Below, one piece after another: positions 6,216 to 21,264 of a stretch of DNA of 64,000 bases (positions within the stretch are counted from its first letter, which is position 1; each line of letters opens with the position of its first letter). A program made the translations under genes and the position numbers. This stretch comes from Natronococcus amylolyticus DSM 10524. GTDB taxonomy: Archaea; Halobacteriota; Halobacteria; Halobacteriales; Natrialbaceae. The stretch covers positions 17,763-81,762 of the forward strand of contig NZ_AOIB01000036.1 in assembly GCF_000337675.1 (NCBI RefSeq), read 5' to 3'. Under the pieces are notes generated by a model. That model saw only the letters and a list, made by a program, of their open reading frames with translations, searched no databases and had not been told where the DNA came from.

Positions 6216-7226
6216 TCAGGCGTCGTACGCTTCCTGAGCGAGTCGATGGAGCTTGTGAACGGTGTGTTCGTTCGGTCCGAGCTGGGCCTGCGCGAGCGCG
6301 CCGGTCCGCAGCCCTGCCCACTGGCGTTCGACGAGTTCGAAGTCCTCTTCCTGGAGCTGACGGCTCGTGCGGACGAACTCTCGTTCCTCCTCCGAGATGT
6401 CGCCGTCACGGAAGTAGTAGTCCGCAATGAGCCGGAAGCGGCCGGTGTCGATCGGATCGATGATGTAGGTGCCGTAGCCGTCGGCGGTGCCGTACATGTT
6501 GACCGTGAAGTTCGGCCAGAAGTAGTGGAACTGGGCCTCGCGCTCGTCGTGAATGCGGAGTTCGTCCTCGATGTCCTCGTCGTGGGTGTAGTGGAGCACC
6601 CAGTGGTAGTCGTTGACCTCGAGTTCGGAGTCGGTGAGCTCGATCCCCTTGATCCAGTCCTGGTGGTTGGCCTGGCAGTGGTCGCACTCGGAGTAGTTAC
6701 CCGCGAACACCTTCCAGTTGCACTCGACCTCCGAGACGACCCGGCAGCCGTGCTCGTACTCCTCGAGGGGCAGCGACTCGAGTCGCTCCTTCAGCACACC
6801 GGCCTGTTCGGAGAGCGACATCGGCTCGTCGCTCAGGTTGACGAAGTAAAGCGGTCCGATGCTGTCGACGCGGACCGACTCGGCGTGCTCGAAGTCGGCG
6901 AGGTCGACGCGGCCGGGATCGGTCATCGACGTCTCGTCGACCACCGGCGAGCCGGTTCGCGCCGAGAAGTTCTCGAAGACCTCGACGTCGCCGTCCGTTC
7001 CGCGGACGACGACGAGGTCGCGACCGCCGACGTTCCGGGTGAAGAACTGTCCCGGCTCGGCGATGCAGCTGGCGTGGCCGGCGTACACCCAGTACCGCCC
7101 GAAGACCTTGTCCTTCTCCATCTCGAAGGTCTCGGGCTCGGTGAAGTACTTCGCCGGCAGCGCGTTCGACTTCTCCGTGATATCCGGGCTGACTGGCTTT
7201 GTCCGAGCGTGCTCCCACTGTGTCAT
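6216..7226 (-). CDS. Rieske-type oxygenase subunit lacking the Rieske cluster (mononuclear-iron half kept)
   Basis: A 336-residue homologue of the alpha subunit of glycine-betaine/choline-type Rieske monooxygenases. The N-terminal fold is recognisable (VFGRYWVYAGH, EPGQFFTR, MTDPG), but the Rieske ligands are absent. The expected C-x-H at residues 88-90 reads S-A-R, and the segment that should hold the second C-x-x-H is deleted. The catalytic domain keeps the mononuclear-iron motif N177-Y-S-E-C-D-H183-C-Q-A-N-H188 and a C-terminal acidic ligand candidate in EEDFELVERQ. The start at MTQW is chosen because its 2-kb upstream paralogue starts identically. It cannot be self-sufficient in electron transfer. 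Confidence 0.85.
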   Translation of the reverse strand: MTQWEHARTKPVSPDITEKSNALPAKYFTEPETFEMEKDKVFGRYWVYAGHASCIAEPGQFFTRNVGGRDLVVVRGTDGDVEVFENFSARTGSPVVDETSMTDPGRVDLADFEHAESVRVDSIGPLYFVNLSDEPMSLSEQAGVLKERLESLPLEEYEHGCRVVSEVECNWKVFAGNYSECDHCQANHQDWIKGIELTDSELEVNDYHWVLHYTHDEDIEDELRIHDEREAQFHYFWPNFTVNMYGTADGYGTYIIDPIDTGRFRLIADYYFRDGDISEEEREFVRTSRQLQEEDFELVERQWAGLRTGALAQAQLGPNEHTVHKLHRLAQEAYDA

Positions 7227-7280
7227 ATACTCACTATGATGATAGAGTTCATGAAAGAAGTTAACTAGGTATATTGCGCC

Positions 7281-7292
7281 CATTTATATGAC
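7281..7292 (-). promoter_or_regulatory. Candidate TATA box for the Rieske-less oxygenase subunit
   Basis: On the minus strand this reads CATATAAATG, about 55-65 bases before the MTQW start codon. The paralogous oxygenase gene has a TATA-like element at nearly the same distance, suggesting similar control of both genes. Confidence 0.45.
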
Positions 7293-7560
7293 GGGTGGTT
7301 CTCGACAGCGCTGGTCGCGTTCCCGCTTGGCCTGGAGTCGCCCGGCGTCGCCTTCGTCCGTCGAGCGAGCATTGCCGACGGTGTCGTGACTCAGGTTCGA
7401 AATCCACCGACTGACCGCCGTTCCCGGCGGTACTGGGAGCCAGTCGTGGCCGCGTCAAGAAGAGGTCGTTCGGGCGGTCGTCTTCGCAGTGTAGGACGGT
7501 CGTTCGTCGACAGTAGGAGGGGCCGGAAGCCGATACACCGCCGACCGGGGGTTTCCTCGA
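7293..7560. other. Intergenic spacer between the two divergently evolving oxygenase units
   Basis: Spacer between the zinc-finger protein stop and the promoter of the Rieske-less subunit. I see no gene in it. Confidence 0.35.
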
Positions 7561-7944
7561 TCAGAACGCACGTAGGTGGTCGTCTTGTGGTTCGTACAGT
7601 CCGCCGCCCATTCGGATCTCGTGGATCTTTTCGAGCGTCTCGCCGATCGACAGTCCCTGCTCGCTCATCGCCGCTGCGACGGCGCCGATCGGAACCCCGT
7701 TCTCGTACTCCGCCTCGAGCTGGGTCACGACGTCTTTGAGCGTGTAGACCTCCTTGAGGTCGTCCTCTGTCACCGCGTCCACGAGGTCGGGTCCGATTCG
7801 GGTGAACTCCACGTCGTGGCCCGTGACACTCGAGTGGCGGCGGTAGAACTCGACGATCTCGTTCGGGTCCTCGCTGTGCAGATCGACGTCGCAGTCGGGA
7901 CAGCTCGCGGCATACGTTGAGTGTTGTTGTTGTTGTGTGCTCAT
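7561..7944 (-). CDS. Zinc-finger protein with MCM-like C-terminal winged helix
   Basis: A 127-residue protein starting MSTQQQQH. Residues C15, C18, H37 and H43 form a C-x2-C...H-x5-H zinc-finger arrangement. The C-terminal 60 residues (LEAEYENGVPIGAV...GGLYEPQDDHLRAF) resemble the extreme C-terminal winged helix of archaeal MCM helicases, which ends in a similar YEP-x-x-x-HLR motif. No helicase domain is present. The start lies only 7 bases after the Rieske-bearing oxygenase stop, so the two are co-transcribed. A DNA-binding regulator is likely; a structural role in the oxygenase is possible but has no direct support. Confidence 0.7.
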   Translation of the reverse strand: MSTQQQQHSTYAASCPDCDVDLHSEDPNEIVEFYRRHSSVTGHDVEFTRIGPDLVDAVTEDDLKEVYTLKDVVTQLEAEYENGVPIGAVAAAMSEQGLSIGETLEKIHEIRMGGGLYEPQDDHLRAF

Positions 7945-7951
7945 GGATCGA

Positions 7952-9031
7952 TCACGAGTTGGACTCCTGTGCGAGCCCGTGGAGGTCGTGGACGGTGTGT
8001 TCGTTCGGTCCGAGCGTCCGCTCGAGGGTGCTGGCTCCGTCCGCGTCGCGGCGGCGTTCGGCCAGTTCGATCGCTTCGGCCCGACGCTGGCGGCTCGTGC
8101 GGACGAACTCTCGTTCCGCTTCGGTGCCATCGCCGTCCCGAGCGTAGTAGTCTACGATCAGCTGACAGCGGCCGGCGTCGACCGGGTCGATAATACACGT
8201 CGCGTACCCGTCGTCGCCGTCCACCTCGATCGTGACGTTCGGCCAGCAGTAGTGAATCTGCGCTCTCCCATCGTCGTCGGTCGAACTGAGCGACCAGCAG
8301 TGGTCGTCGGTCTCGAGGTCGGTCTCCGCGGACTCGACGCCCGGAAGCCGATCCTGACGGTCGACCGCGTCCAGGAGGCTGCCGGCGACCGTCTTCCAGT
8401 TGCACTCGACCTCCTCGACGACCCGACGCTCGTGGTCGGCCGCCTCGAGGGACAGCGACTCGAGCCGATCCGCCATCGGACCGACCTGCTCGGACAGCGC
8501 CGGCGGGTCGTCGCTCAGGTTCACGAACAGCAGCGGGCCGACGCTGTCAATGTGAACGTCGTTCAGGCCGTTGGTCTCGCAGTCGAACTCCTGGACGTCC
8601 TCGTTCTCGAGGTCGGGGTTCAGGCTCGCGTCCTCGAAGCTCTTCGGTGTGCTCCGGAGCTCGCCGTCGAGGTCGTACGTCCAGAGATGGTACGGACACT
8701 GGATCCGGTTCCCACCGCCGGGATCGGTCATCGGCGTATCCTCGACCATCTTGGAGCCGCGATGGGCACAGACGTTGTCGAACGCCTTGCTCTCGCCGTC
8801 GTGACCGCGGACGACGATCAGCTGCCGGTCGCCGACGGTTCGGGTGAAGAACTGTCCCGGTTCGGCGATGCTGTTGGCGTGGCCGGCGTAGATCCAGTCT
8901 CTGCCGAAGACCGTCTCCTTCTCCGTCTCGAAGGGATCGGGGTCGGCGAGCTGATTGGCCGACGAGGTGCTCGACTCGTCCGTAACGTTCTCACTCACCG
9001 CGGCGGCTTGTGAGTCGTCCCACTGTGTCAT
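7952..9031 (-). CDS. Rieske-type oxygenase subunit lacking the mononuclear-iron triad (Rieske cluster kept)
   Basis: A 359-residue alpha-subunit homologue, clearly paralogous to the subunit at 6216-7226. The Rieske ligands are intact: C88-A-H90 and C112-P-Y-H115, with the LWTYDLDG continuation. In the catalytic domain the region matching the partner's NYSECDHCQANH reads SLLDAVDRQDRL, so both iron-binding histidines are gone. The C-terminal acidic ligand (partner EEDFEL) reads AEAIEL, so it is also gone. The protein should transfer electrons but not activate oxygen. The MTQW start follows the paralogue, and the frame upstream of it reads as non-coding. Confidence 0.87.
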   Translation of the reverse strand: MTQWDDSQAAAVSENVTDESSTSSANQLADPDPFETEKETVFGRDWIYAGHANSIAEPGQFFTRTVGDRQLIVVRGHDGESKAFDNVCAHRGSKMVEDTPMTDPGGGNRIQCPYHLWTYDLDGELRSTPKSFEDASLNPDLENEDVQEFDCETNGLNDVHIDSVGPLLFVNLSDDPPALSEQVGPMADRLESLSLEAADHERRVVEEVECNWKTVAGSLLDAVDRQDRLPGVESAETDLETDDHCWSLSSTDDDGRAQIHYCWPNVTIEVDGDDGYATCIIDPVDAGRCQLIVDYYARDGDGTEAEREFVRTSRQRRAEAIELAERRRDADGASTLERTLGPNEHTVHDLHGLAQESNS

Positions 9032-9245: not shown

Positions 9246-10457
9246 CTACGGGACGGCCGACTGCCGATCGCCGGAGTGGGCATCCCCGGCGCGTCGCTCG
9301 GATCGGTGCTGGTCGCTGCCGCGGATCCGCTCGGCGATCTCCTCCCGAGACGGCCCCTCCTCCGGCGTTCTCGAGGCGTAGACGCGTCTGACCACGAGAT
9401 CGATCAGATCGAGTTCCTCGAGCAGCTCCCGGGTCCGGTCGCGCTCGAGGTCGAGCGCTCGAGAGACGTCGTACAGCGTCATCGCCGACTCGACCGCGTC
9501 GATCAGTCCCTCGACCTCGACGTCGTCCGGAAGACCGATCCCGTCCGCGACGAGGGGCCGCTCTGGGATGTCCTCGACCGGGTCCGCGGTCCCGTCGGGA
9601 CGAGCAGGAGCCGGCTCCGCGTCGCTCGCGGTAGCGTCCGATCCCTCGGCAGCGGACTGGTCGTCCGGCTCGTCGACCGGTTCCGTTCGCTCTTCGGTCT
9701 CCTCGGCGTCGGCCACGTCGTAGGAGACGGGGTCGTGGACGCCGGCGTCGATCATGTACCGACGGACGGTCTCGGCTGCGACGTCCATCTCGAGGACGTC
9801 GGCCATCGCCGCGAACGTCTCGAACGACTCGTACAGACACTGCAGGTACTCGGCGTCGTCGTACGGCGGTAGCTCCTCGTTGCGCGCGTCCTCGAGGGCC
9901 CGTGAGAGTTCGGAGTCGATCGCGGACTCGGCTTCGGCTTCGCTCCCGAGTCGAGCGCCCGTCGATACCGGGCCGACTCCCTCCTCGTCGAGGGGGTCAC
10001 CCGTCTCGAGCGAGCCGTCGGTTTCGGTCGGTTCCGTCCCGGCGTCCGATTCGGCCGCTGAACCCGCCGGCGGCTCGGCTCGAGCCGACGTCGCCTCCTC
10101 CTCGAAGCCGATCGCGAACGTCACGACGACGTCGCCGTCGGCGGTCACGCGGGCGTCGTCCCTCGTCACGACGACGCCGTCCGGCGCGTACTCCGCTATC
10201 GCGGGCAGCGCCGAGCGGGAGAACTCGAGGGAGAGCCCCCCGTCGTCGTCCAGGCGTGCCGTTTCGGGCGTCGTGCTGGTGTCCGATTCGGCCGCCGTCC
10301 CGTTACACAGCGGGGCGACGACGTCGACCGAGACGCTCGGAGCGGTCGCGTCCGCCCGCCCCGAGATCGTCGCGTCGACCTGCCGGATCACGCCGCCGTC
10401 CGCCTCGTACCGGTCTACTATTTGCGAGAGTGTATCAACCGAGTCACCGATCCTCAT
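9246..10457 (-). CDS. Candidate haloarchaeal transcriptional regulator with two helix-turn-helix-like segments
   Basis: A 403-residue acidic protein of no family I can name. The N-terminal 150 residues form an alpha/beta region (MRIGDSVDTLSQIV...) that may be a sensor. After an acidic low-complexity linker comes a segment resembling a transposase/repressor HTH (YLQCLYESFETFAAMADVLE...TVRRYMIDAGVHDP). A second acidic linker is followed by another HTH-like segment (MTLYDVSRALDLERDRTRELLEEL). It lies divergent to the dehydrogenase gene and beside the oxygenases, so control of the betaine island is a reasonable guess. ATG 10457 is chosen; upstream sequence in frame looks non-coding. Confidence 0.6.
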   Translation of the reverse strand: MRIGDSVDTLSQIVDRYEADGGVIRQVDATISGRADATAPSVSVDVVAPLCNGTAAESDTSTTPETARLDDDGGLSLEFSRSALPAIAEYAPDGVVVTRDDARVTADGDVVVTFAIGFEEEATSARAEPPAGSAAESDAGTEPTETDGSLETGDPLDEEGVGPVSTGARLGSEAEAESAIDSELSRALEDARNEELPPYDDAEYLQCLYESFETFAAMADVLEMDVAAETVRRYMIDAGVHDPVSYDVADAEETEERTEPVDEPDDQSAAEGSDATASDAEPAPARPDGTADPVEDIPERPLVADGIGLPDDVEVEGLIDAVESAMTLYDVSRALDLERDRTRELLEELDLIDLVVRRVYASRTPEEGPSREEIAERIRGSDQHRSERRAGDAHSGDRQSAVP

Positions 10458-10774: not shown

Positions 10775-13342
10775 ATGAATACACACGACAGTCTGCCGGC
10801 CGAGGCCGACACCGTCGTCGTCGGGGCCGGAATCGTCGGCTGCAGCACGGCCTACCACCTGACCGAGTTCGGGCGTGAGGACGTCGTCGTCGTCGACCAG
10901 GGGCCACTCCCGACCACGGGCGGCTCCTCGAGCCACGCGCCGGGGATCATGTTCCAGACCGCCGAGGACAAGGTGTTGACCAAGTTCGCGAACTACAGCC
11001 GCAAGCTCTACTCGCAACTCGAGGACGAGGACGGGAACCAGCTCTACAGCGAGACGGGCGGGATCGAAGTCGCCCGGAGCGACGAGCGGATGGACTTCCT
11101 CCAGCGCCGGGTCGAGTACGGCACCGCGTGGGGCGTTCCGGACCCCCAGCTCCTCTCGCCCGAGGAGGTCGAGGAGAAGCTGCCGCTGGTCGACAGCGAC
11201 GTCATCCAGGGCGGCTACTACTCGCCGACCGACGGCCAGGTGTCGGGTGTCAAGGCCTGCGCCGCGCTGGCGAGGGCGTCGATGGATCGGGGCGCGAGGT
11301 TCGTCCCCCACACCCGGACCGAGGACGTCGCGGTCGAGGACGGCGAGGTGCAGGCCGTCGTCACCGAACACGGCGAGATCGAGTGTAACGAGGTCGTGAT
11401 CGCGACGAACATCTGGGCGCGCCAGCTTGGCGAACAGCTCGGAGTCCACCTGCCCGTGACGCCGGTCGAACACCAGTACACGATCACCGAGTCCCTCGAG
11501 GAGCTGTCGGACGACCAGGACGTCACCCAGGACCCGGTCTACGAGAACTACCGCGAAGTCTCCGGCGAGAAGGCAGACCGCCTGCTCGCGAACCCCGACC
11601 GACCGATCCTCCGGGACCAGGACAACGCCCTGTACTTCCGGACCCACGGCGACGCCTACGGGATCGGCTCGTACAACCACGAACCGCTCGTCCCCGACCC
11701 ACAGGAGCTCGGCGGTAACGAGGAGGGCGGCGAGCAGGGCTCGATCCACGAGTTCTCCGACTACCACCTGAACAACGCGACCCACCCCGATCGGCCGGAC
11801 AAGGCACCCCGCCAGGCCAGCGACGAGCTGTTGCCCGCGACCGCGGGGAAAGAACTCGAGCACAAGTACAACGGGATGTTCGCGGAGTCGCCCAACGGCC
11901 TCCCCGTGATGGGGCCCGTCCAGGAGTACGACGGGCTCTGGACCGCCGCGGCTATCTGGGTCACCCACGCCGGCGGCGCGGGGCGAGCGCTGGCCGAGTG
12001 GATGGAGACCGGCGCGCCGAAGCTCTCCGACGGACGGATCGACCTCTCGCACTGTAACGTCAACCGGTTCCAGCCCCACGAGGGCAGCTGGGACTTCGCC
12101 CGCGACATCGGCGGCGAGGAGTACCGGATCGTCTACAACATCGTCCACCCCAAGTGGACCTGGACGGACTACCAGCGCGACATCCGCCGCAGCTCGGTCT
12201 ACCACAAACTGCAGGAGCTCGACGCCGAGCTGTGGGCCGAGGCCGGCTGGGAGGAGGCCCAGTGGTTCGATTCGAACGCCGACTTGCTTGCACGCTACGG
12301 CGAGGACGTTCCCGAGCGGGACGGCTGGGAGGCGAAGTACTGGTCGCCGATCGAGGGCGCCGAGTCCCTGCACGTCCGCAACGAGGTCGGCATCCACGAT
12401 ATGACCTCGTTCAACAAGATGGAGGTCAGCGGGCAGGGCGCCGGCGAGTTCGTCCAGTACCTCTGTACCAACGACATGGACATCGACGTCGGGCAGGTGC
12501 GCTACACCCTCATGTGCAACGAGGAGGGTGGCGTGCGGGCCGACATCACCGTCACCCGGACCGACGACGATCGCTACCTCGTGCTCACCACGGGCCGGGA
12601 GGTCGGGCAGAACCACGTCGCCTGGGTCAAGAAACACGCCCCCGAGGACGTCACGGTCCGGGAGGTCACCTCCGAACTCACCTCGTTCGTCCTCACGGGG
12701 CCGAACGCCCGCGACGTGCTGAGCGAGGTAACCCGAGCCGATCTCTCGGACGACGCCTTCCCGTACTTCACCTCCCAGGAGATGTTCGTCAAGAACGTCC
12801 CGGTGCGGGCGCTGCGAGTCTCCTACGCCGGGGAACTCGGCTGGGAGCTGTACACGCCAAGCGAGTACGGCGGACGGCTCTGGGAGCACCTCTGGGAGGC
12901 CGGCCAGGACCACGACCTCCGGCCGTACGGCAACGGCGCGCTCGACTCCCTGCGCATCGAGAAGGGGTTCCGGCTGTGGGGGGAGGACCTCCACACCGAG
13001 CACAACCCCTACGAGGCGGGGCTCAGCTTCGCCGTCGACCTCGAGACGGAGTTCATCGGGAAGGAGGCCGTCGTCGAGGCCGCCGAGGGCGAGCGGATCG
13101 ATCACAAGGTAGCCTGTCTGACCCTCGATGACGAGGACGCGGTCGTCTTCAAGAACCGGCCCGTCCTCGACGGCGACGAATCGTTGGGGTACGTTCACAG
13201 CGCCGAGTACGGCTACACGGTCGGCGCCTGCGTCGCCTACGCCTACCTCCCGCCGGAGTACGCCGAGCCCGGCACTGAAGTCGAGATTCTCCACGAGGGC
13301 GAACGCTACGCGGCGACGGTTCAGGACGGACCGCTGCTGTAG
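10775..13342 (+). CDS. FAD-dependent dimethylglycine/sarcosine dehydrogenase fused to GcvT domain (copy 1)
   Basis: An 855-residue two-part enzyme. Residues 1 to about 400 are a DAO-type FAD oxidoreductase with the dinucleotide motif GAGIVG (17-22) and a histidine in SSHAPG (H54), placed where relatives attach FAD covalently. From about residue 440 it is a GcvT-like tetrahydrofolate-binding aminomethyltransferase (HDMTSFNKMEV, NEEGGVRADI, GELGWELY near 687) ending in a C-terminal barrel. The family demethylates dimethylglycine or sarcosine and passes the one-carbon unit to tetrahydrofolate. Context with oxygenases, BCCT and GlyA supports betaine catabolism. Which N-methyl substrate it uses is unknown. 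Confidence 0.88.
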   Translation: MNTHDSLPAEADTVVVGAGIVGCSTAYHLTEFGREDVVVVDQGPLPTTGGSSSHAPGIMFQTAEDKVLTKFANYSRKLYSQLEDEDGNQLYSETGGIEVARSDERMDFLQRRVEYGTAWGVPDPQLLSPEEVEEKLPLVDSDVIQGGYYSPTDGQVSGVKACAALARASMDRGARFVPHTRTEDVAVEDGEVQAVVTEHGEIECNEVVIATNIWARQLGEQLGVHLPVTPVEHQYTITESLEELSDDQDVTQDPVYENYREVSGEKADRLLANPDRPILRDQDNALYFRTHGDAYGIGSYNHEPLVPDPQELGGNEEGGEQGSIHEFSDYHLNNATHPDRPDKAPRQASDELLPATAGKELEHKYNGMFAESPNGLPVMGPVQEYDGLWTAAAIWVTHAGGAGRALAEWMETGAPKLSDGRIDLSHCNVNRFQPHEGSWDFARDIGGEEYRIVYNIVHPKWTWTDYQRDIRRSSVYHKLQELDAELWAEAGWEEAQWFDSNADLLARYGEDVPERDGWEAKYWSPIEGAESLHVRNEVGIHDMTSFNKMEVSGQGAGEFVQYLCTNDMDIDVGQVRYTLMCNEEGGVRADITVTRTDDDRYLVLTTGREVGQNHVAWVKKHAPEDVTVREVTSELTSFVLTGPNARDVLSEVTRADLSDDAFPYFTSQEMFVKNVPVRALRVSYAGELGWELYTPSEYGGRLWEHLWEAGQDHDLRPYGNGALDSLRIEKGFRLWGEDLHTEHNPYEAGLSFAVDLETEFIGKEAVVEAAEGERIDHKVACLTLDDEDAVVFKNRPVLDGDESLGYVHSAEYGYTVGACVAYAYLPPEYAEPGTEVEILHEGERYAATVQDGPLL

Positions 13343-13915: not shown

Positions 13916-14134
13916 ATGGACGTTCCGGTTTCGCTGCCGTAGTCACGGTCGTCGAACGGCGTCCTCGAGCGACTAACCTTGGGACGCAATACGTGTCTGG
14001 ATGATGACTGTTTGTGGACTGTCGATCAACACTGTCCCTTCGTCGCCGGAGTGGGCCCGCAGTACCCGGATTGAAGACCGCGTCCGCCCTCTCACCGATG
14101 CACTTATGATACCCACTGTACCACGGTGTGGTAT

Positions 14135-16684
14135 ATGAGCACAGACAGCCCGCCCTCGAGTGCCGGGACGGTGATCATCGGTGCCGGGGCGGTCGGGTGC
14201 AGCGTGGCTTATCACCTGACCGAACTCGGTGCCGACGACGTCGTCGTCCTCGACAAGGGACCGCTGCCGGTGACCGGCGGCTCCTCGACCCACGCGCCGG
14301 GGATCATGTTCCAGACCTCGCCGTCGAAGCTCCAGACGAAGACGGCCCACTACACGACTCGACTGCTGAAGGAAGCCGGCGTCTACAACGAGACCGGCGG
14401 AATCGAGCTCGCTCGCTCGGAGGAACGGATGGATTTCCTCCAGCGCCGGGTCGAGTGGGCGAAATCGTACGGGCTCCCCGAGCCGGAGCTGCTCGAGCCC
14501 GCGGAAGTCACCGACTACCTGCCGCTGGTCGACGAGGAGGAGATCCTCGGCGGCTACTACTCGCCGACCGACGGCCAGGTCGCCGGCACCGACGCGCTCC
14601 AGTGGTACCTCGAGACGACGCCGGCGTCGTTCCACGGCCACACCGAGGTGACCGATATCGAGGTCGACGGCGGGGAGGTGCAGGCGGTCGTCACCGACCG
14701 CGGGCGCATCGAGTGTGACCGCTGCGTGCTGGCAACGAACAACTGGGCCTACCAGACCGGACAGCTCGCTGGCGTCGACCTGCCGATCGCCCCGGTCGAA
14801 CACCAGTACGTCGTCACCGAACCGCTCGAGGAGCTGCGAGGCAACGAACGGGCCGACGACGCCGTCACCGGGCTCGAGATCCCGGGCGATCGAAAGATCA
14901 CCGAGTCGATGGCCCAGCCGCCGGACCGCCCGGTCGGCCGGGATCAAGACAACTCGTTATACTTCCGAACCCACGGCGAGGGGTACGGGCTCGGCTCGTA
15001 CAACCACGAGCAGCTCGTGGTCGACCCCGACGAGATGGGGTCGAACTCCGAGGAGAGCCAGGCCTCCGTCCACAGCTTCACGGAGAAACACTGGAGGAAG
15101 GCGACTCACCCGGATCGGGAGAAGTCGCCGAAGCAGGCGTTCGACGAGCTGCTTCCTGCGACCGAAGGCAGAGAGTTCGACGCTACCGAGAACGGAATCT
15201 TCGTCTACACGCCGGACGGGATGCCCGTACTGGGCGAGACCGCGGCGGTCGACGGGCTCTGGACCGGGCTCGCGATCTGGTGGACCCACTCGGGCGGCTA
15301 CGGCAAGATCCTCGCGGAGTGGATGGAAACGGGCGTCCCCCGACTCCCCTCCGGCCCCGTCGACACGAGCGGAATCCACGTCGAGCGGTTCGAGCCTCAC
15401 GCAGGAAACAAGCAGTACTTCATGGACCGTGGCGGGATGCGCTACCAGCAGGTCTACAGCATCGTCGAGCCCCGCTGGCAGCCCGCCGACCGCCGCGGGC
15501 TCCGGACGAGTCCGTTCTACCACCGTCAGCAGGAACTGGGTGCGGAGTTCTACCAGAGCGGCGGCTGGGAGACCCCGCAGTGGTACGAATCCAACGCCGA
15601 CCTCCTCTCGACGTACGAGGACCGCATCCCCGACCAGGACGGCTGGCAGGGGGTCAACCGCTCCCCGATCGAGGGCGCCGAACATCTCCACACCCGCGAG
15701 AAGGTGTCGATGTTCGATATGACGACGTTCAGTTCGATCGTGGTCGAGGGCAGCGACGCCGGCGCGTTCCTCCAGCGGGTCTGTAGCAACGATATGGACC
15801 TCTCGATCGGCCAGGTTCGCTACACCACGATGTTGAACGAAGGCGGGACCGTCCTCGCGGACCTCACCGTCGCTCGCCTCGACGACGAGGAGTACGTGGT
15901 GACCACCGGTGGGGGGAACTCGCCGGGGATCCACGGCTCCTGGCTCGAGCGCCACGCCCCCGAGTCGGTGTCGGTCACGGTCGAGGAGTCCGCGAGGAGT
16001 ACGATCGGCCTCTGGGGGCCGAACGCGCGACTGCTCCTCCAGCGGGCGACCGACGCGGATCTCTCGAACGACGAGTTCTCCTACTTCAGCGGAAAGCGGA
16101 TCTACGTCGGCGACGTCCCCGTCATCGCCCTGCGGCTCTCCTACGTCGGCGAACTCGGCTGGGAGCTGTGGGCGCCGACGGAGTACGCGGGGAAGCTGTG
16201 GGACACCCTCTGGGAAGCCGGCCAGGATCTGGGCGTCCGACCGATGGGCGCCGGGGCCGTCGAGTCGATGCGCCTCGAGAAGGGGTTCCGGCTGTGGGGG
16301 ACGGACGTCGATACCGACGTCAACCCCTACGAGGCCGGGCTCCCGTTCGCGGTCGATCTCGACACCGACTTCATCGGGAAGGAGGCGCTCGTCGAGGCCA
16401 AAGACGAGGGGATCGACAACCGGGTCGCCTGCCTCACCCTCGACGACTCGAGCGACGTGATGCTGAGCGGCCGTCCGGTCTCGAAAGACGGCGCCACTCT
16501 CGGGTACGTCCAGGCCGGCGACTACGGCTACAGCATCGGCGAGTCGATCGCGTACACCTACCTGCCGAGCGAGTACGCCGAGACGGGCACGTCGGTCCGA
16601 ATCGAGTGCGAGGGGCAGAGCTACGACGCGACGGTTCGGGACGAGCCGCTGTTCGACCCCGGCCGCGATAAAATAATCCGATAG
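14135..16684 (+). CDS. FAD-dependent dimethylglycine/sarcosine dehydrogenase fused to GcvT domain (copy 2)
   Basis: An 849-residue paralogue of the enzyme at 10775-13342 with the same two-domain plan. It has GAGAVG (16-21), a STHAPGIMF motif with H53 at the expected flavin-attachment site, then the GcvT-like half with MTTFSSIVVEG, NEGGTVLADL, GELGWELW and a final barrel domain. A GTG at 14126 is in frame, but ATG 14135 gives an N-terminus like the paralogue's. It is 17 bases upstream of the dehydratase and probably co-transcribed with it. The two copies may handle dimethylglycine and sarcosine separately (inference). Confidence 0.87.
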   Translation: MSTDSPPSSAGTVIIGAGAVGCSVAYHLTELGADDVVVLDKGPLPVTGGSSTHAPGIMFQTSPSKLQTKTAHYTTRLLKEAGVYNETGGIELARSEERMDFLQRRVEWAKSYGLPEPELLEPAEVTDYLPLVDEEEILGGYYSPTDGQVAGTDALQWYLETTPASFHGHTEVTDIEVDGGEVQAVVTDRGRIECDRCVLATNNWAYQTGQLAGVDLPIAPVEHQYVVTEPLEELRGNERADDAVTGLEIPGDRKITESMAQPPDRPVGRDQDNSLYFRTHGEGYGLGSYNHEQLVVDPDEMGSNSEESQASVHSFTEKHWRKATHPDREKSPKQAFDELLPATEGREFDATENGIFVYTPDGMPVLGETAAVDGLWTGLAIWWTHSGGYGKILAEWMETGVPRLPSGPVDTSGIHVERFEPHAGNKQYFMDRGGMRYQQVYSIVEPRWQPADRRGLRTSPFYHRQQELGAEFYQSGGWETPQWYESNADLLSTYEDRIPDQDGWQGVNRSPIEGAEHLHTREKVSMFDMTTFSSIVVEGSDAGAFLQRVCSNDMDLSIGQVRYTTMLNEGGTVLADLTVARLDDEEYVVTTGGGNSPGIHGSWLERHAPESVSVTVEESARSTIGLWGPNARLLLQRATDADLSNDEFSYFSGKRIYVGDVPVIALRLSYVGELGWELWAPTEYAGKLWDTLWEAGQDLGVRPMGAGAVESMRLEKGFRLWGTDVDTDVNPYEAGLPFAVDLDTDFIGKEALVEAKDEGIDNRVACLTLDDSSDVMLSGRPVSKDGATLGYVQAGDYGYSIGESIAYTYLPSEYAETGTSVRIECEGQSYDATVRDEPLFDPGRDKIIR

Positions 16685-16701: not shown

Positions 16702-17949
16702 ATGAACGAATCACGAAAACGCGAACCCGAAATCCAGTACGAGGACATCGAGCGAGCACGCGAGCGACTGACCGACGAGACGGTCGTCAAGCGCACGCCG
16801 ATCGAGCGCTCCACGTCCCTCGAGGAGCTGGTCGACGCGGAGGTCTACCTGAAGATGGAACACCTCCAGTGGACCGGCTCGTTCAAGACCCGCGGGGCGT
16901 ACAACCGGATCAGCCAGGCCGTCGCCGACGGCGCCGACGAGTTCGTCGCCGCAAGCGCCGGCAACCACGCCCAGGGCGTCGCGCTGGCTGCGACCAGGTG
17001 TGGCGCCGACTCGACGATCGTTATGCCGAGACATGCCCCCCAGGCGAAGATCGACGCCACCCGGAGCTACGGCGCGACGGTCGAACTCGTCGGCCAGGAC
17101 TTCCAGGAGGCGATGGCCCACGCGAAGGAGTACGCCAGCGAGGACGACGAGGTCGAGTTCGTCCACGCCTACGACGATCCCGCGATCGTCGCGGGACAGG
17201 GAACTCTGGGAATCGAGATGTACGAGGACCTCCCCGAGGTCGACACCGTCGTCGTCCCGATCGGCGGCGGCGGGTTGATAAGCGGGATCTCCACGGCGCT
17301 CGACCACCTCTCACCCGAGACGCGAGTCGTCGGCGTCCAGGCGACAGGCGCCGAGACCGTCCACGAGAGCCTCGACAAGGGCGTCCCGGTGACGCTCGAC
17401 GACGTCGATACGATCGCCGACGGGATCGCCACCGGTGGGATCTCCGAACTGACGCTGGGGCTCATCGAGGAACACGTCGACGAGGTCGTCACCGTCACCG
17501 ACTCCCAGATCGCCCGCGCGATCTTGCTGTTGCTCGAGCGAGCGAAGCAGGTCGTCGAGGGCGCGGCCGCGGCGTCGGTCGCGGCGCTGCTGAGCGACGA
17601 TCTGGATGTCACGGGCGAGACCGTCATGCCGCTGCTGTGTGGCGGCAATCTCGACATGACGATGCTGCAGACGGTGTTGATCCACGCGCTCACCGGCCGA
17701 GGCCAGATCCTGCGCCTGCGCGTGAAGATCGACGACATGCCGGGGAAGATGAACGAGCTCTCGGGGATCATCGCCCACCACGGAGCGAACATTCAGACCG
17801 TCCGCCACGACCGCGCGGTCGAATCGCTGAACGTCGGCGAGGCCTACCTCGTCTTCCAGATCGAGACGAGCGGGATCGAACACGCCGCCGCGATCATCGA
17901 CAGCATCGAAGCGGAGGGGTACGACGTCGAAGACGTCAACCGCGAATAA
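16702..17949 (+). CDS. Serine/threonine dehydratase with C-terminal ACT domain
   Basis: A 415-residue fold type II PLP enzyme. The PLP lysine is K62 in GSFKTRGA, the phosphate-cradle glycines are in PIGGGGLISG at about residues 186-195, and an ACT domain begins near residue 335 (RLRVKIDDMPGKMNELSGI). The family deaminates threonine to 2-oxobutyrate or serine to pyruvate. Next to dehydrogenases that yield glycine and methylene-tetrahydrofolate, and with glyA nearby, serine deamination to pyruvate is the likely role. It follows copy 2 of the dehydrogenase by 17 bases. Confidence 0.88.
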   Translation: MNESRKREPEIQYEDIERARERLTDETVVKRTPIERSTSLEELVDAEVYLKMEHLQWTGSFKTRGAYNRISQAVADGADEFVAASAGNHAQGVALAATRCGADSTIVMPRHAPQAKIDATRSYGATVELVGQDFQEAMAHAKEYASEDDEVEFVHAYDDPAIVAGQGTLGIEMYEDLPEVDTVVVPIGGGGLISGISTALDHLSPETRVVGVQATGAETVHESLDKGVPVTLDDVDTIADGIATGGISELTLGLIEEHVDEVVTVTDSQIARAILLLLERAKQVVEGAAAASVAALLSDDLDVTGETVMPLLCGGNLDMTMLQTVLIHALTGRGQILRLRVKIDDMPGKMNELSGIIAHHGANIQTVRHDRAVESLNVGEAYLVFQIETSGIEHAAAIIDSIEAEGYDVEDVNRE

Positions 17950-18148: not shown

Positions 18149-19789
18149 GTGGCCGGCTCTGAGTCGACCGGGCCGCTGGCGCGATTCGCCGAGGAACTCG
18201 ACGTCGCCGTCTTCACCGTCGGCTTCGTCATCGCGGCCGTGTCGGTACTGGCGTTCGTGATTCGGCCCGAGGCCGCGTCGAGCCTGATGGCCGACGCGAA
18301 CGACGTTCTGTGGACCGCCGCCGGCTGGTGGTACCTGGTCGCGATGTTTATCCTCGTCGCGTTCGTCGGCTTCCTCATCTTCGGGCCGTGGGGAAACATC
18401 AAACTCGGCGACGACGACGAACGGCCGGAGTTTGCCTTCCCGGCGTACTTCGCGATGCTGTACTCCGCCGGAATCGCTGCCGGAATCGTATTCTGGGGGC
18501 CCGCCGAGGCCATTTTCCACTACGACGCGGTATCGCCGTTCGTCGACGCCGAGTCCCAGTCCTCCGGCGCCGCGGTCAGCGCGATCCAGTACACCTTCTT
18601 CCACTGGGGCGTCTCCGCGTGGACCGCCTACGTCGTCATGGCGCTGCCGATCGCGTACTTCGCGTATCGGTACGACGCGCCGCTTCGGATCTCGACGGTG
18701 ATCGCACCGTGGGTCGGCCTCGAGAATCTCGACAGCCCGCTCGCGAAGTCGATCGACATCCTCGCGGTGTTCGCCACGATCGGCGGCGTCGCGACGACGC
18801 TCGGGCTGGTCGGAAGCCAGTTCCTCGTCGGCATCGAGTGGACCACCGGTGCCAGCGTCGGCGACGCGGGTACCGTGGTGGTGATAACCGGCCTCACGGT
18901 CGCGTTCACGATCTCCGTCGCGCTCGGGGTTCGAAAGGGGATCCGACGGCTCTCCTACTTCAATATGGGGCTGTTCGCGCTCGTGACCGTCGCGACGTTC
19001 CTGCTCGGACCCACGACCCAGATCATGTCGATGGGGACCCAGGCGCTCGGCGCCTACATCAACCAGTTCATCACGATGAGCTTCTACACTGGATCCGGCG
19101 CCACGGGAGGTGCGGGCGTCGCGGAGTGGGTCGGCGACTGGACGATCTTCTACTGGGCCTGGTGGTTCTCCTGGACGCCGTTCGTCGGCCTCTTCATCGC
19201 GCGGATCTCACGGGGCCGAACGGTCCGGCAGGTCGCCGTTACGGGCGTGATCGCCTCGACCGGAATCACGGTTCCCTGGTTCGCAACGATGGGCGGAACG
19301 GCGATCTTCCTCCAGGGAAACGATCGGGCCGACATCCTCGCTGTCGTCAGTGAACTCGGCGAGGCGGGGTCGGGCTACCCGCTGTTCGAGGCGCTCCCGC
19401 TGGGCGGCGTGTTGACCGTCCTCTTTCTGGTGCTCGTGACGACGTTCCTGATCACGTCGGCCGACTCCTCGACGCTCGCACTCGGCATGCTGACCACCGG
19501 CGGCGTCGAGGAGCCCTCGACGATCAACCGCGTCATCTGGGGCTTTCTCATCGGGGCGCTGGCCTCCCTGCTGATGGTTACCGGTGGCGTCGACGCGCTT
19601 CAGCAGGCCGCGATCATCACCGGCGGCCCGTTCTCGATCATCGCTCTGCTCGCCGTGATCTCGATGATGTCCGCGTTCGGAGCTCGCAGACCGCTGTTCC
19701 TCCGCGAGGAGGACGACGTCTCGCTCGGCTCGACCGACCTCGAGGGAACCCGCACGGAACCCGAGACCGCGGATCCGTCCGACGACTGA
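18149..19789 (+). CDS. BCCT-family betaine/choline/carnitine transporter
   Basis: A 546-residue polytopic carrier. The tryptophan-rich BCCT signature is clear (FYWAWWFSWTPFVGLFIARISRGRT-like, shown in part as WAWWFSWTPFVGLF), with the expected twelve helices and a hydrophilic C-terminal tail. These carriers import quaternary ammonium compounds with Na+ or H+. It starts at GTG 18149 behind GGGTGA at good spacing. Its position beside the demethylation genes suggests it brings in the betaine they consume, though osmoprotection is possible too. Confidence 0.9.
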   Translation: MAGSESTGPLARFAEELDVAVFTVGFVIAAVSVLAFVIRPEAASSLMADANDVLWTAAGWWYLVAMFILVAFVGFLIFGPWGNIKLGDDDERPEFAFPAYFAMLYSAGIAAGIVFWGPAEAIFHYDAVSPFVDAESQSSGAAVSAIQYTFFHWGVSAWTAYVVMALPIAYFAYRYDAPLRISTVIAPWVGLENLDSPLAKSIDILAVFATIGGVATTLGLVGSQFLVGIEWTTGASVGDAGTVVVITGLTVAFTISVALGVRKGIRRLSYFNMGLFALVTVATFLLGPTTQIMSMGTQALGAYINQFITMSFYTGSGATGGAGVAEWVGDWTIFYWAWWFSWTPFVGLFIARISRGRTVRQVAVTGVIASTGITVPWFATMGGTAIFLQGNDRADILAVVSELGEAGSGYPLFEALPLGGVLTVLFLVLVTTFLITSADSSTLALGMLTTGGVEEPSTINRVIWGFLIGALASLLMVTGGVDALQQAAIITGGPFSIIALLAVISMMSAFGARRPLFLREEDDVSLGSTDLEGTRTEPETADPSDD

Positions 19790-20013: not shown

Positions 20014-21264
20014 CTACTCGTAGATCGGGTATGCCGTACAGAGTTCGTCGACCTGTGAGGCCACACGATCGGTGACACCCTCGTCGTCAGGCGCGTCGAG
20101 TACGTCGACGATACAGTCGGCGACGGTCTCCATCTCCGCCTCCTCGAGCCCGCGCGTGGTGAGCGCCGGCGTGCCGACGCGGATCCCGCTCGTGACCATC
20201 GGCGATCGGGTCTCGCCGGGAACGGTGTTCTTGTTGACGATGATGCCGGCGTCGCTCAGCAGCGACTCGGCTTGCTTGCCCGTGAGGTCGGGATGGGAGT
20301 CCCGGAGGTCGACCAGCAGGAGGTGTTTGTCGGTGCCGTCGCTGACCAGCGAGAGTCCTCGCTCGACGAAGACATCGGCGAGTCGCTTCGCGTTCGCGAC
20401 GACCTGTTCGGCGTACTCGTCGAACGCGTCGGTTCGAGCTTCCGCGAAGCCGACGGCCTTGCCGGCGACGTTGTGCATCAGCGGGCCGCCCTGCGCGCCG
20501 GGGAACACCGCCGAGTCGATGTCGTCGGCGAACTCCTCGTCGCACATGACGATCCCGCCCCGCCCCGCGCGGATCGTCTTGTGCGTGCTCCCGGTGACGA
20601 ATTCGGCGTGTTCGACGGGCGAGGCGTGGACGCCGGCCGCGACGAGCCCGGTTACGTGAGCGATGTCCGCCAGGTGGAGCGCGTCGACGGCGTCGGCGAT
20701 CTCCGCGATTCGCTCGTACTCGAACTCGCGGGGGTACGCCGAAGAACCGCTGACGATCAGCTCCGGATCGGTCTCGCGAGCCTGCCGCTCGAGGTCGTCG
20801 TAGTCGATGTAGCCGGTGTCGGGATCGACCTCGTACTGGTCGACGTCGTAGAGCTGTCCGGAGAAGTTGACGCTGTGGCCGTGGCTCAGATGGCCGCCGT
20901 GAGACAGCGACAGCGAGAGGATGCTGTCGGCGGGCTCGAGGACGGCAAAGTAGACGCTCATGTTCGCCTGGGTCCCGCTGTGGGGCTGGACGTTGACGTG
21001 GTCCGCGCCGAAGAGCGCTTTCGCCGACTCGATCGCGTCCTCCTCGACCGTGTCGACGTGCTGGCAGCCGCCGTAGTACCGGCCGCCGGGGTAGCCCTCG
21101 GCGTACTTGTTCGTCAGCGCGCTGCCCTGGGCCTCGAGGACGGCCTCCGAGACGTGGTTTTCCGAGGCGATCATGCCGAGCGTCGACTCCTGTCGATCGC
21201 GTTCGCGGTCGATGGCCGTCGCTACGCTCGGTGAGATGCTGTCGAGTGGCTGGTCGAACGCCAT
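20014..21264 (-). CDS. glyA: Serine hydroxymethyltransferase
   Basis: A 416-residue PLP enzyme interconverting glycine plus methylene-tetrahydrofolate with serine. The PLP lysine is K229 in STHKTIRAGRGG, the same number as in the E. coli enzyme. N-terminal IASENHVS, YAEGYPGGRYYGG and HVNVQPHSGTQAN are all standard. In this island it can combine the glycine and the one-carbon unit released by demethylation. It is convergent with the BCCT gene and followed upstream by purU on the same strand, 163 bases away. Confidence 0.96.
   Translation of the reverse strand: MAFDQPLDSISPSVATAIDRERDRQESTLGMIASENHVSEAVLEAQGSALTNKYAEGYPGGRYYGGCQHVDTVEEDAIESAKALFGADHVNVQPHSGTQANMSVYFAVLEPADSILSLSLSHGGHLSHGHSVNFSGQLYDVDQYEVDPDTGYIDYDDLERQARETDPELIVSGSSAYPREFEYERIAEIADAVDALHLADIAHVTGLVAAGVHASPVEHAEFVTGSTHKTIRAGRGGIVMCDEEFADDIDSAVFPGAQGGPLMHNVAGKAVGFAEARTDAFDEYAEQVVANAKRLADVFVERGLSLVSDGTDKHLLLVDLRDSHPDLTGKQAESLLSDAGIIVNKNTVPGETRSPMVTSGIRVGTPALTTRGLEEAEMETVADCIVDVLDAPDDEGVTDRVASQVDELCTAYPIYE

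Follow-up and report, generated by a model that had tools for sequence, protein, structure and literature searches.

Kunugi et al. are said to have reported in 2013 that the chlorophyllide a oxygenase (CAO) of Micromonas carries its Rieske motif on one chain and its iron motif on another, and that both chains are needed. The Micromonas enzyme (MpCAO) sits on two polypeptide chains, and a trimer of dimers was suggested for this two-chain algal form (PMC9615114). NdmC, the oxygenase subunit of the methylxanthine N7-demethylase NdmCDE, is without a Rieske cluster of its own and uses the extra Rieske domain of the NdmD reductase (PMC4408171). In CntA, the two metals are 44 Å apart within a subunit and 12.2 Å apart across neighbouring subunits, and electron transfer is helped by residue E205 (PMC7948474). 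Here, we describe a 64,000-nucleotide stretch of the genome of the archaeon Natronococcus amylolyticus DSM 10524 (contig NZ_AOIB01000036.1, positions 17,763 to 81,762; the window) that encodes two Rieske oxygenase alpha paralogues, A and B, each of which keeps the metal site that the other has lost.

The layout of a split Rieske oxygenase, with cluster ligands on one chain and iron ligands on the other, is present in A and B. What a single-chain enzyme of this type combines was found only in the pair together, as the cluster ligands occur in B alone and the iron site with its bridging glutamate in A alone. We consider it likely that neither of these paralogues works without the other and that both belong to one mixed Rieske oxygenase, where B would feed electrons to the iron of A. 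Compared by published description, MpCAO is alike in being a Rieske oxygenase carried by two polypeptides, but it is eukaryotic and biosynthetic with a chlorophyll substrate, whereas A and B are archaeal, likely serve glycine betaine catabolism and have apparent intermediates in relatives. The initial annotation of the locus knew of no described case of the reciprocal pattern. That claim falls with the two polypeptide chains of the Micromonas CAO (PMC9615114); the reciprocal split has an algal precedent, of which A/B is an archaeal variant. As described, NdmCDE likewise has a clusterless oxygenase subunit with the cluster on another protein, although its cluster is fused to a reductase and the one described here is carried by an oxygenase paralogue whose iron site is ruined. 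The group V enzymes CntA and GbcA share their active-site motif with A and are the best Protein Data Bank (PDB) and NCBIfam matches. CntA, however, forms homotrimers in which every subunit has both metals, whereas A and B have one each and score far under the GbcA cut-off.

Protein A (336 amino acids; 6216..7226, minus strand) matched PF00848 (E 2.1e-19) with PF00355 under its cut-off, and protein B (359 amino acids; 7952..9031, minus strand) matched PF00355 (E 2.7e-18) with PF00848 under its cut-off. Both reading frames are open and start with MTQW, and the gene order on the minus strand is B, a small HVO_B0008-family protein and A. Metal ligands were examined in an alignment of 72 rows (47 full-length, 19 A and 6 B), from which duplicates (L001, L064-L066), a fragment (L063), G192 (L056-L059), L038 and a distant row (F_L067) were left out. 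The 47 full-length rows all have the C-H-C-H cluster ligands and the E-H-H-D bridge and iron set, eight positions in total. In A of the window, S and R stand at the C88 and H90 of its relatives, and the stretch with C112 and H115 is gone through a 41-residue deletion (336 versus 377 amino acids); the iron triad H183, H188 and D295 and the bridging E180 are retained. Serine at the first cysteine, the identical deletion and a complete iron site recur in 19/19 A rows, with R at the histidine column in 18 of them and N in one. B of the window retains C88, H90, C112 and H115, but its iron motif contains a 4-residue gap and neither histidine, and alanine stands in place of the C-terminal acid. The same C-H-C-H set is found in all six B rows and the iron histidines in none. 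The C-terminal acid is lost in four B rows and retained in those of N. jeotgali and G132, which also have one histidine near the former iron motif. Since no H-x4-H occurs past residue 160 in any of the six, the iron ligands were lost and not displaced, and displacement was ruled out as an explanation for B.

These columns agree with what had first been read from the letters of A (S-A-R, second cluster segment deleted, iron motif kept) and with the view that ligands were lost rather than moved. For B, the kept cluster ligands, the missing histidines and the replaced acid of the window copy were all borne out; replacement of the acid does not extend to the two B rows named above. Two further A genes lie outside the ligand table. 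That of G192 reads S-A-R, and its partner is split over contig ends with all motifs present on the pieces. That of Haloterrigena salina (G356; L072 1893-3000) also reads S-A-R and is interrupted at an N in an assembly gap. On the same contig, one of the two partner copies of H. salina (L038 9980-11104) is broken, lacking the stretch that holds most of the cluster ligands and with its frame disrupted. The breaks in L038 and L072 may be draft-assembly errors or real decay.

A wider set of 128 database homologues was pooled from the best 120 of 155 and the best 120 of 123 matches. Among the matches listed, 103 were complete, 16 were A-type, five were B-type, three were incomplete and one had two altered positions. 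Fifteen of the A-type proteins have exactly 336 amino acids and one is partial. Their serine is constant; the second position varies, and in five of the 16 it is not R (but N, Q, H, E and E). A sequencing or assembly artefact was ruled out by the deletion shared by every A row and by the 16 A-type database homologues. The five B-type proteins are all named Natronococcus, and reciprocity as a general archaeal trait was therefore rejected.

Among 391 genomes of the class, 72 had a homologue at E <= 1e-30 and 16 had the A form. Five more genomes with A were reached through other loci (L008, L010, L012, L014 and L017), for a total of 21. All 21 hold a partner, which is B in six and a full-length protein in 15; 14 of these full-length partners are in the ligand table, and the split partner of G192 is the fifteenth. 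Within the genus Natronococcus, six of nine genomes have A and B and no other homologue among the matches listed at E <= 1e-20, so that no hidden full-length copy was seen among those matches. The remaining three are G263, with A and an intact partner; G297, with a single full-length gene; and G400, with no homologue at E <= 1e-20. B adjoins A in each of the six. A is also the sole PF00848 match in the genome of the window (G000). The initial annotation had asked whether the two proteins always co-occur, and A was indeed never found without a partner; that partner has both sites in 15 of 21 genomes, so the pair as such is not general in archaea. Orthologues with every ligand in place, which had been named as telling against an obligate pair, were found for B and for no A row. 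Haloarcula amylovorans (L016) provides a natural control: it has a partner-type full-length gene, and searches detected neither A in its genome nor the small protein downstream of that gene.

Constraint on each half was estimated as the ratio of nonsynonymous to synonymous change (dN/dS) from Nei-Gojobori counts, in pairs that are non-independent and, for A and B, come from one genus. Over 15 pairs, the median for Natronococcus A was 0.31 in the N-terminal half and 0.13 in the iron half, and that for B was 0.24 in the Rieske half and 0.58 in the half without iron ligands (the dead half). Nine single full-length genes served as a control and gave 0.24 (N-terminal half) and 0.19 (catalytic half). 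Twelve intact partners gave 0.11 and 0.05, with 46 and 58 of 66 pairs usable, and the A proteins of those 12 genomes gave 0.24 and 0.06. The Rieske half of B is thus held as in single enzymes, and its dead half is about three times looser. Fewer codons were changed in the Rieske half of B than in all 2000 random placements in 5/5 pairs, and the dead half had fewer than all 2000 shuffles in 4/5. The reciprocal loss first read in the window is real and present in six of the nine Natronococcus genomes, and in A as in B constraint is stronger on the half that still has its metal site.

Trees of 60 rows were compared between the N-terminal 100 residues and the catalytic half. With the N-terminal residues, A forms one clade (100/99), as does B (99/96) among intact partners. 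With the catalytic half, the A proteins of G263, Halegenticoccus, Halostagnicola and G360 each pair with the partner from their own genome, G022 and G056 make up one mixed clade, and B is placed with A from the same Natronococcus group, where the program warns of long branches. For 12 of the 15 genomes with full-length partners, synonymous divergence (dS; approximate when above 1) of A from its own partner was 0.10-0.61 over the catalytic half, against 0.46-3.1 over the N-terminal half; three comparisons of A between genomes gave 1.3-2.0 for the catalytic half. In nine genomes, identity between A and its own partner was 72-82% over codons 1-30, 79-100% over codons 31-60, 54-72% over codons 61-120 and 75-100% from codon 151, with codons 121-150 falling within the A deletion. 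Two partner-to-partner profiles between genomes were flat at 74-89%. Gene conversion seems to homogenise A and its full-length partner on both sides of codons 61-150, within which the cluster ligands lie at 88-115. Because the divergent island around the cluster-binding region persists despite conversion, selection for a cluster-free A is the simplest reason and probably maintains the loss. Another pattern was seen among the B alleles. Identity between B of the window and that of A-GB7 is 93-98% as far as codon 180 but drops to 53-84% beyond it, and comparison with L007 and L008 gave 93-99% in front and 53-84% behind. These apparently mosaic alleles suggest recombination near codon 180 plus fast divergence.

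A structure model of B had a mean predicted local distance difference test score (pLDDT) of 71 and a predicted template modelling score (pTM) of 0.74, with pLDDT of 69-94 over most of the catalytic half and about 48-62 over residues 91-150. Its best PDB match was CntA (E 5e-21, template modelling score 0.65, root-mean-square deviation 6.8), and B is predicted to keep the oxygenase fold. CntA is also the best PDB sequence match of both A and B. Residues Y178, E180, C181 and C184 of A align with Y203, the bridging E205 and the C206/C209 pair of CntA; Y178, C181 and C184, the last two forming the Cys-x-x-Cys known from some quaternary-ammonium enzymes, are invariant in a 22-row alignment and absent from B. 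CntA studies hold that this tyrosine, the bridging glutamate and the cysteine pair are important for recognising the substrate, for passing electrons between subunits and for activity (PMC7948474; PMC10952381). With one metal site per protein, the B cluster beside the A iron is the arrangement that the CntA geometry would use. The [2Fe-2S] cluster of B would then pass electrons over the subunit interface to the iron of A, the predicted site of glycine betaine demethylation. GbcA was the best NCBIfam match of A (75.5 bits) and B (110.9 bits), below its 670-bit cut-off, which two intact haloarchaeal relatives also fail (140.4 and 131.4 bits).

The likely substrate was judged from the neighbouring genes. 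The small HVO_B0008-family protein between B and A (127 amino acids; 7561..7944, minus strand; PF25214 and PF25215) is a likely accessory component. Of 54 genes for full-length or B oxygenases, 49 had a gene of this family detected directly downstream, and its product may be a dedicated partner. On the plus strand, a fusion of a flavin adenine dinucleotide (FAD) oxidoreductase with GcvT (10775..13342; DAO, FAO_M, GCV_T and GCV_T_C), likely dimethylglycine or sarcosine demethylating, is followed by a second such paralogue identified by domain scan (14126..16684), a threonine/serine ammonia-lyase (16702..17949; TIGR01127 over its cut-off) and a BCCT betaine/carnitine/choline transporter (18149..19789; PF02028, E 1e-149). 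The best NCBIfam match of the transporter is the glycine betaine BCCT model, under its cut-off. A serine hydroxymethyltransferase (20014..21264, minus strand; PF00464), a major facilitator superfamily transporter and a gene that we take from its sequence to be PurU-like are also on the flank. Such a gene set is expected for the conversion of glycine betaine to serine and pyruvate. The two adjacent FAD-GcvT paralogues perhaps share out dimethylglycine and sarcosine. Relatives of these fusions lie near 15 of the 19 A genes whose flanks were examined. By its gene content, the neighbourhood is of a glycine-betaine-type catabolic kind, and the substrate of A/B is likely glycine betaine, which would make the pair a glycine betaine monooxygenase. 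Possible betaine use by some haloarchaea was earlier suggested from such genes (PMC3102087), and for Haladaptatus cibarius a glycine betaine demethylase is listed in a genome paper (PMC4571117). Directly upstream of B, 9249-10454 (minus strand) encodes a protein without a Pfam family over cut-off. Its relatives of at least 200 bits were found in 21 loci including the window, all of which have a gene for A, for B or for a full-length enzyme of the partner type. At 30668-55660 lies an extended series of genes that, judged from their sequences, resemble glycosyltransferases, epimerases and membrane polymerases and probably form a surface polysaccharide cluster.

Several observations weigh against a mixed oxygenase of A and B acting on glycine betaine. 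By enumeration, A and B in any proportion can form no more than one productive B-to-A contact in a three-membered head-to-tail ring; a six-membered ring permits three. The model of A was poor (pLDDT 53.6) and was not interpreted. Intact relatives also have a catalytic half that is tighter than the N-terminal half, so the pattern of A alone is not special and differs in degree; only that of B is reversed. H. walsbyi possesses a dimethylglycine-oxidase-like gene and a BCCT transporter, yet its growth is noted as not enhanced by betaine (PMC3102087), and the gene neighbourhood consequently does not prove betaine use. Scans of seven neighbours found no reductase, and the single FAD_binding_6 match in the genome sits on another contig. 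The closest B pair (the window and A-GB1) is near neutral in its dead half, with 20 changed codons against 23.4 +/- 2.4 expected and 218/2000 placements as low. Lastly, the genome of the window encodes four other Rieske-type proteins that might feed A; by eye, two are small and ferredoxin-like, the third is longer and contains a Rieske domain, and the fourth, an FAD oxidoreductase, has a Rieske end (L004).

These four proteins bear on an explanation in which A works without B, its iron being reduced by another Rieske protein or a ferredoxin, and B has another role or none. NdmC, itself without a Rieske cluster and served by one located on the reductase (PMC4408171), would be the model for this. 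In NdmCDE the Rieske domain is fused to the reductase and one subunit is like a glutathione S-transferase; scans of A, B, the small protein and seven neighbours found no domain of either kind, and elsewhere the genome encodes the FAD oxidoreductase with its Rieske end. We think that A working without B is unlikely, as B stands next to A and keeps its cluster ligands in every one of the six genomes with its Rieske half under constraint, A in relatives has for its neighbour a full oxygenase whose Rieske half is homologous, and no Rieske domain was found in the seven neighbouring proteins that were scanned. The near-neutral dead half of the closest pair, together with the fast change of that half overall, could instead mean that B is a copy decaying into a pseudogene, and that the pair is not a working enzyme or the betaine route has been abandoned. 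This is very improbable, since all six B frames are open, constraint was seen on the Rieske half in every tested pair and on the dead half in all but one, and the conserved iron half of A suggests an active site in use in a protein without cluster ligands of its own. That A and B act apart, with B as a free Rieske electron carrier that serves other enzymes and A as an iron protein that catalyses a different reaction, would fit the wide loss of conserved residues in the dead half of B but is hardly credible, because B is predicted to keep its fold and occupies the gene position of an oxygenase partner, and A retains the quaternary-ammonium active-site set and the bridging glutamate, whose known role is in transfer from a neighbouring cluster. 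The mixed enzyme, in which B supplies the cluster and A the iron, therefore remains our preferred explanation; the sequences show the reciprocal ligand loss, its occurrence in six genomes of the genus, the co-occurrence and the constraint, and we infer the oligomer, electron path and substrate.

Relatives suggest an origin of the mixed enzyme in three steps, which matches the comparison best. A full-length homo-oligomeric enzyme would have been duplicated. One copy, A, would then have lost its cluster ligands with the 41-residue deletion and stayed beside an intact partner, with gene conversion keeping the catalytic halves of the two alike. In an ancestor of the six Natronococcus, the partner would have lost its iron site and become the electron-transfer subunit B. 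Whether a homotrimer has here been caught turning stepwise into an obligate two-protein machine, with selection holding a Rieske-less subunit against conversion before one genus lost the iron site of the twin, is in our judgement evenly balanced. If so, a dedicated electron donor and a dedicated catalyst would have arisen on one fold, with a mixed ring of alternating roles as the final form, and cluster-free subunits would be useful in themselves, for example by limiting the electron supply per active site.

Among the matches listed in the open-licence literature, CAO and NdmC were the only split or Rieske-less oxygenases, and no prokaryotic report of metal sites divided between paralogues was seen. 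As far as the listed matches show, the novelty here lies in an archaeal context that is likely catabolic, in intermediates that survive and in a divergent island maintained despite gene conversion. If the proposed pairing is correct, this would be, to our knowledge, the second lineage after green algae to divide the metal sites of a Rieske oxygenase between paralogues. Since intact, half-split and fully split forms are alive in close relatives, the route from a homomer to an obligate heteromer is directly testable, as is the number of clusters that an oxygenase trimer needs. With one metal site per protein, A and B would also be a natural system in which to measure inter-subunit electron transfer.

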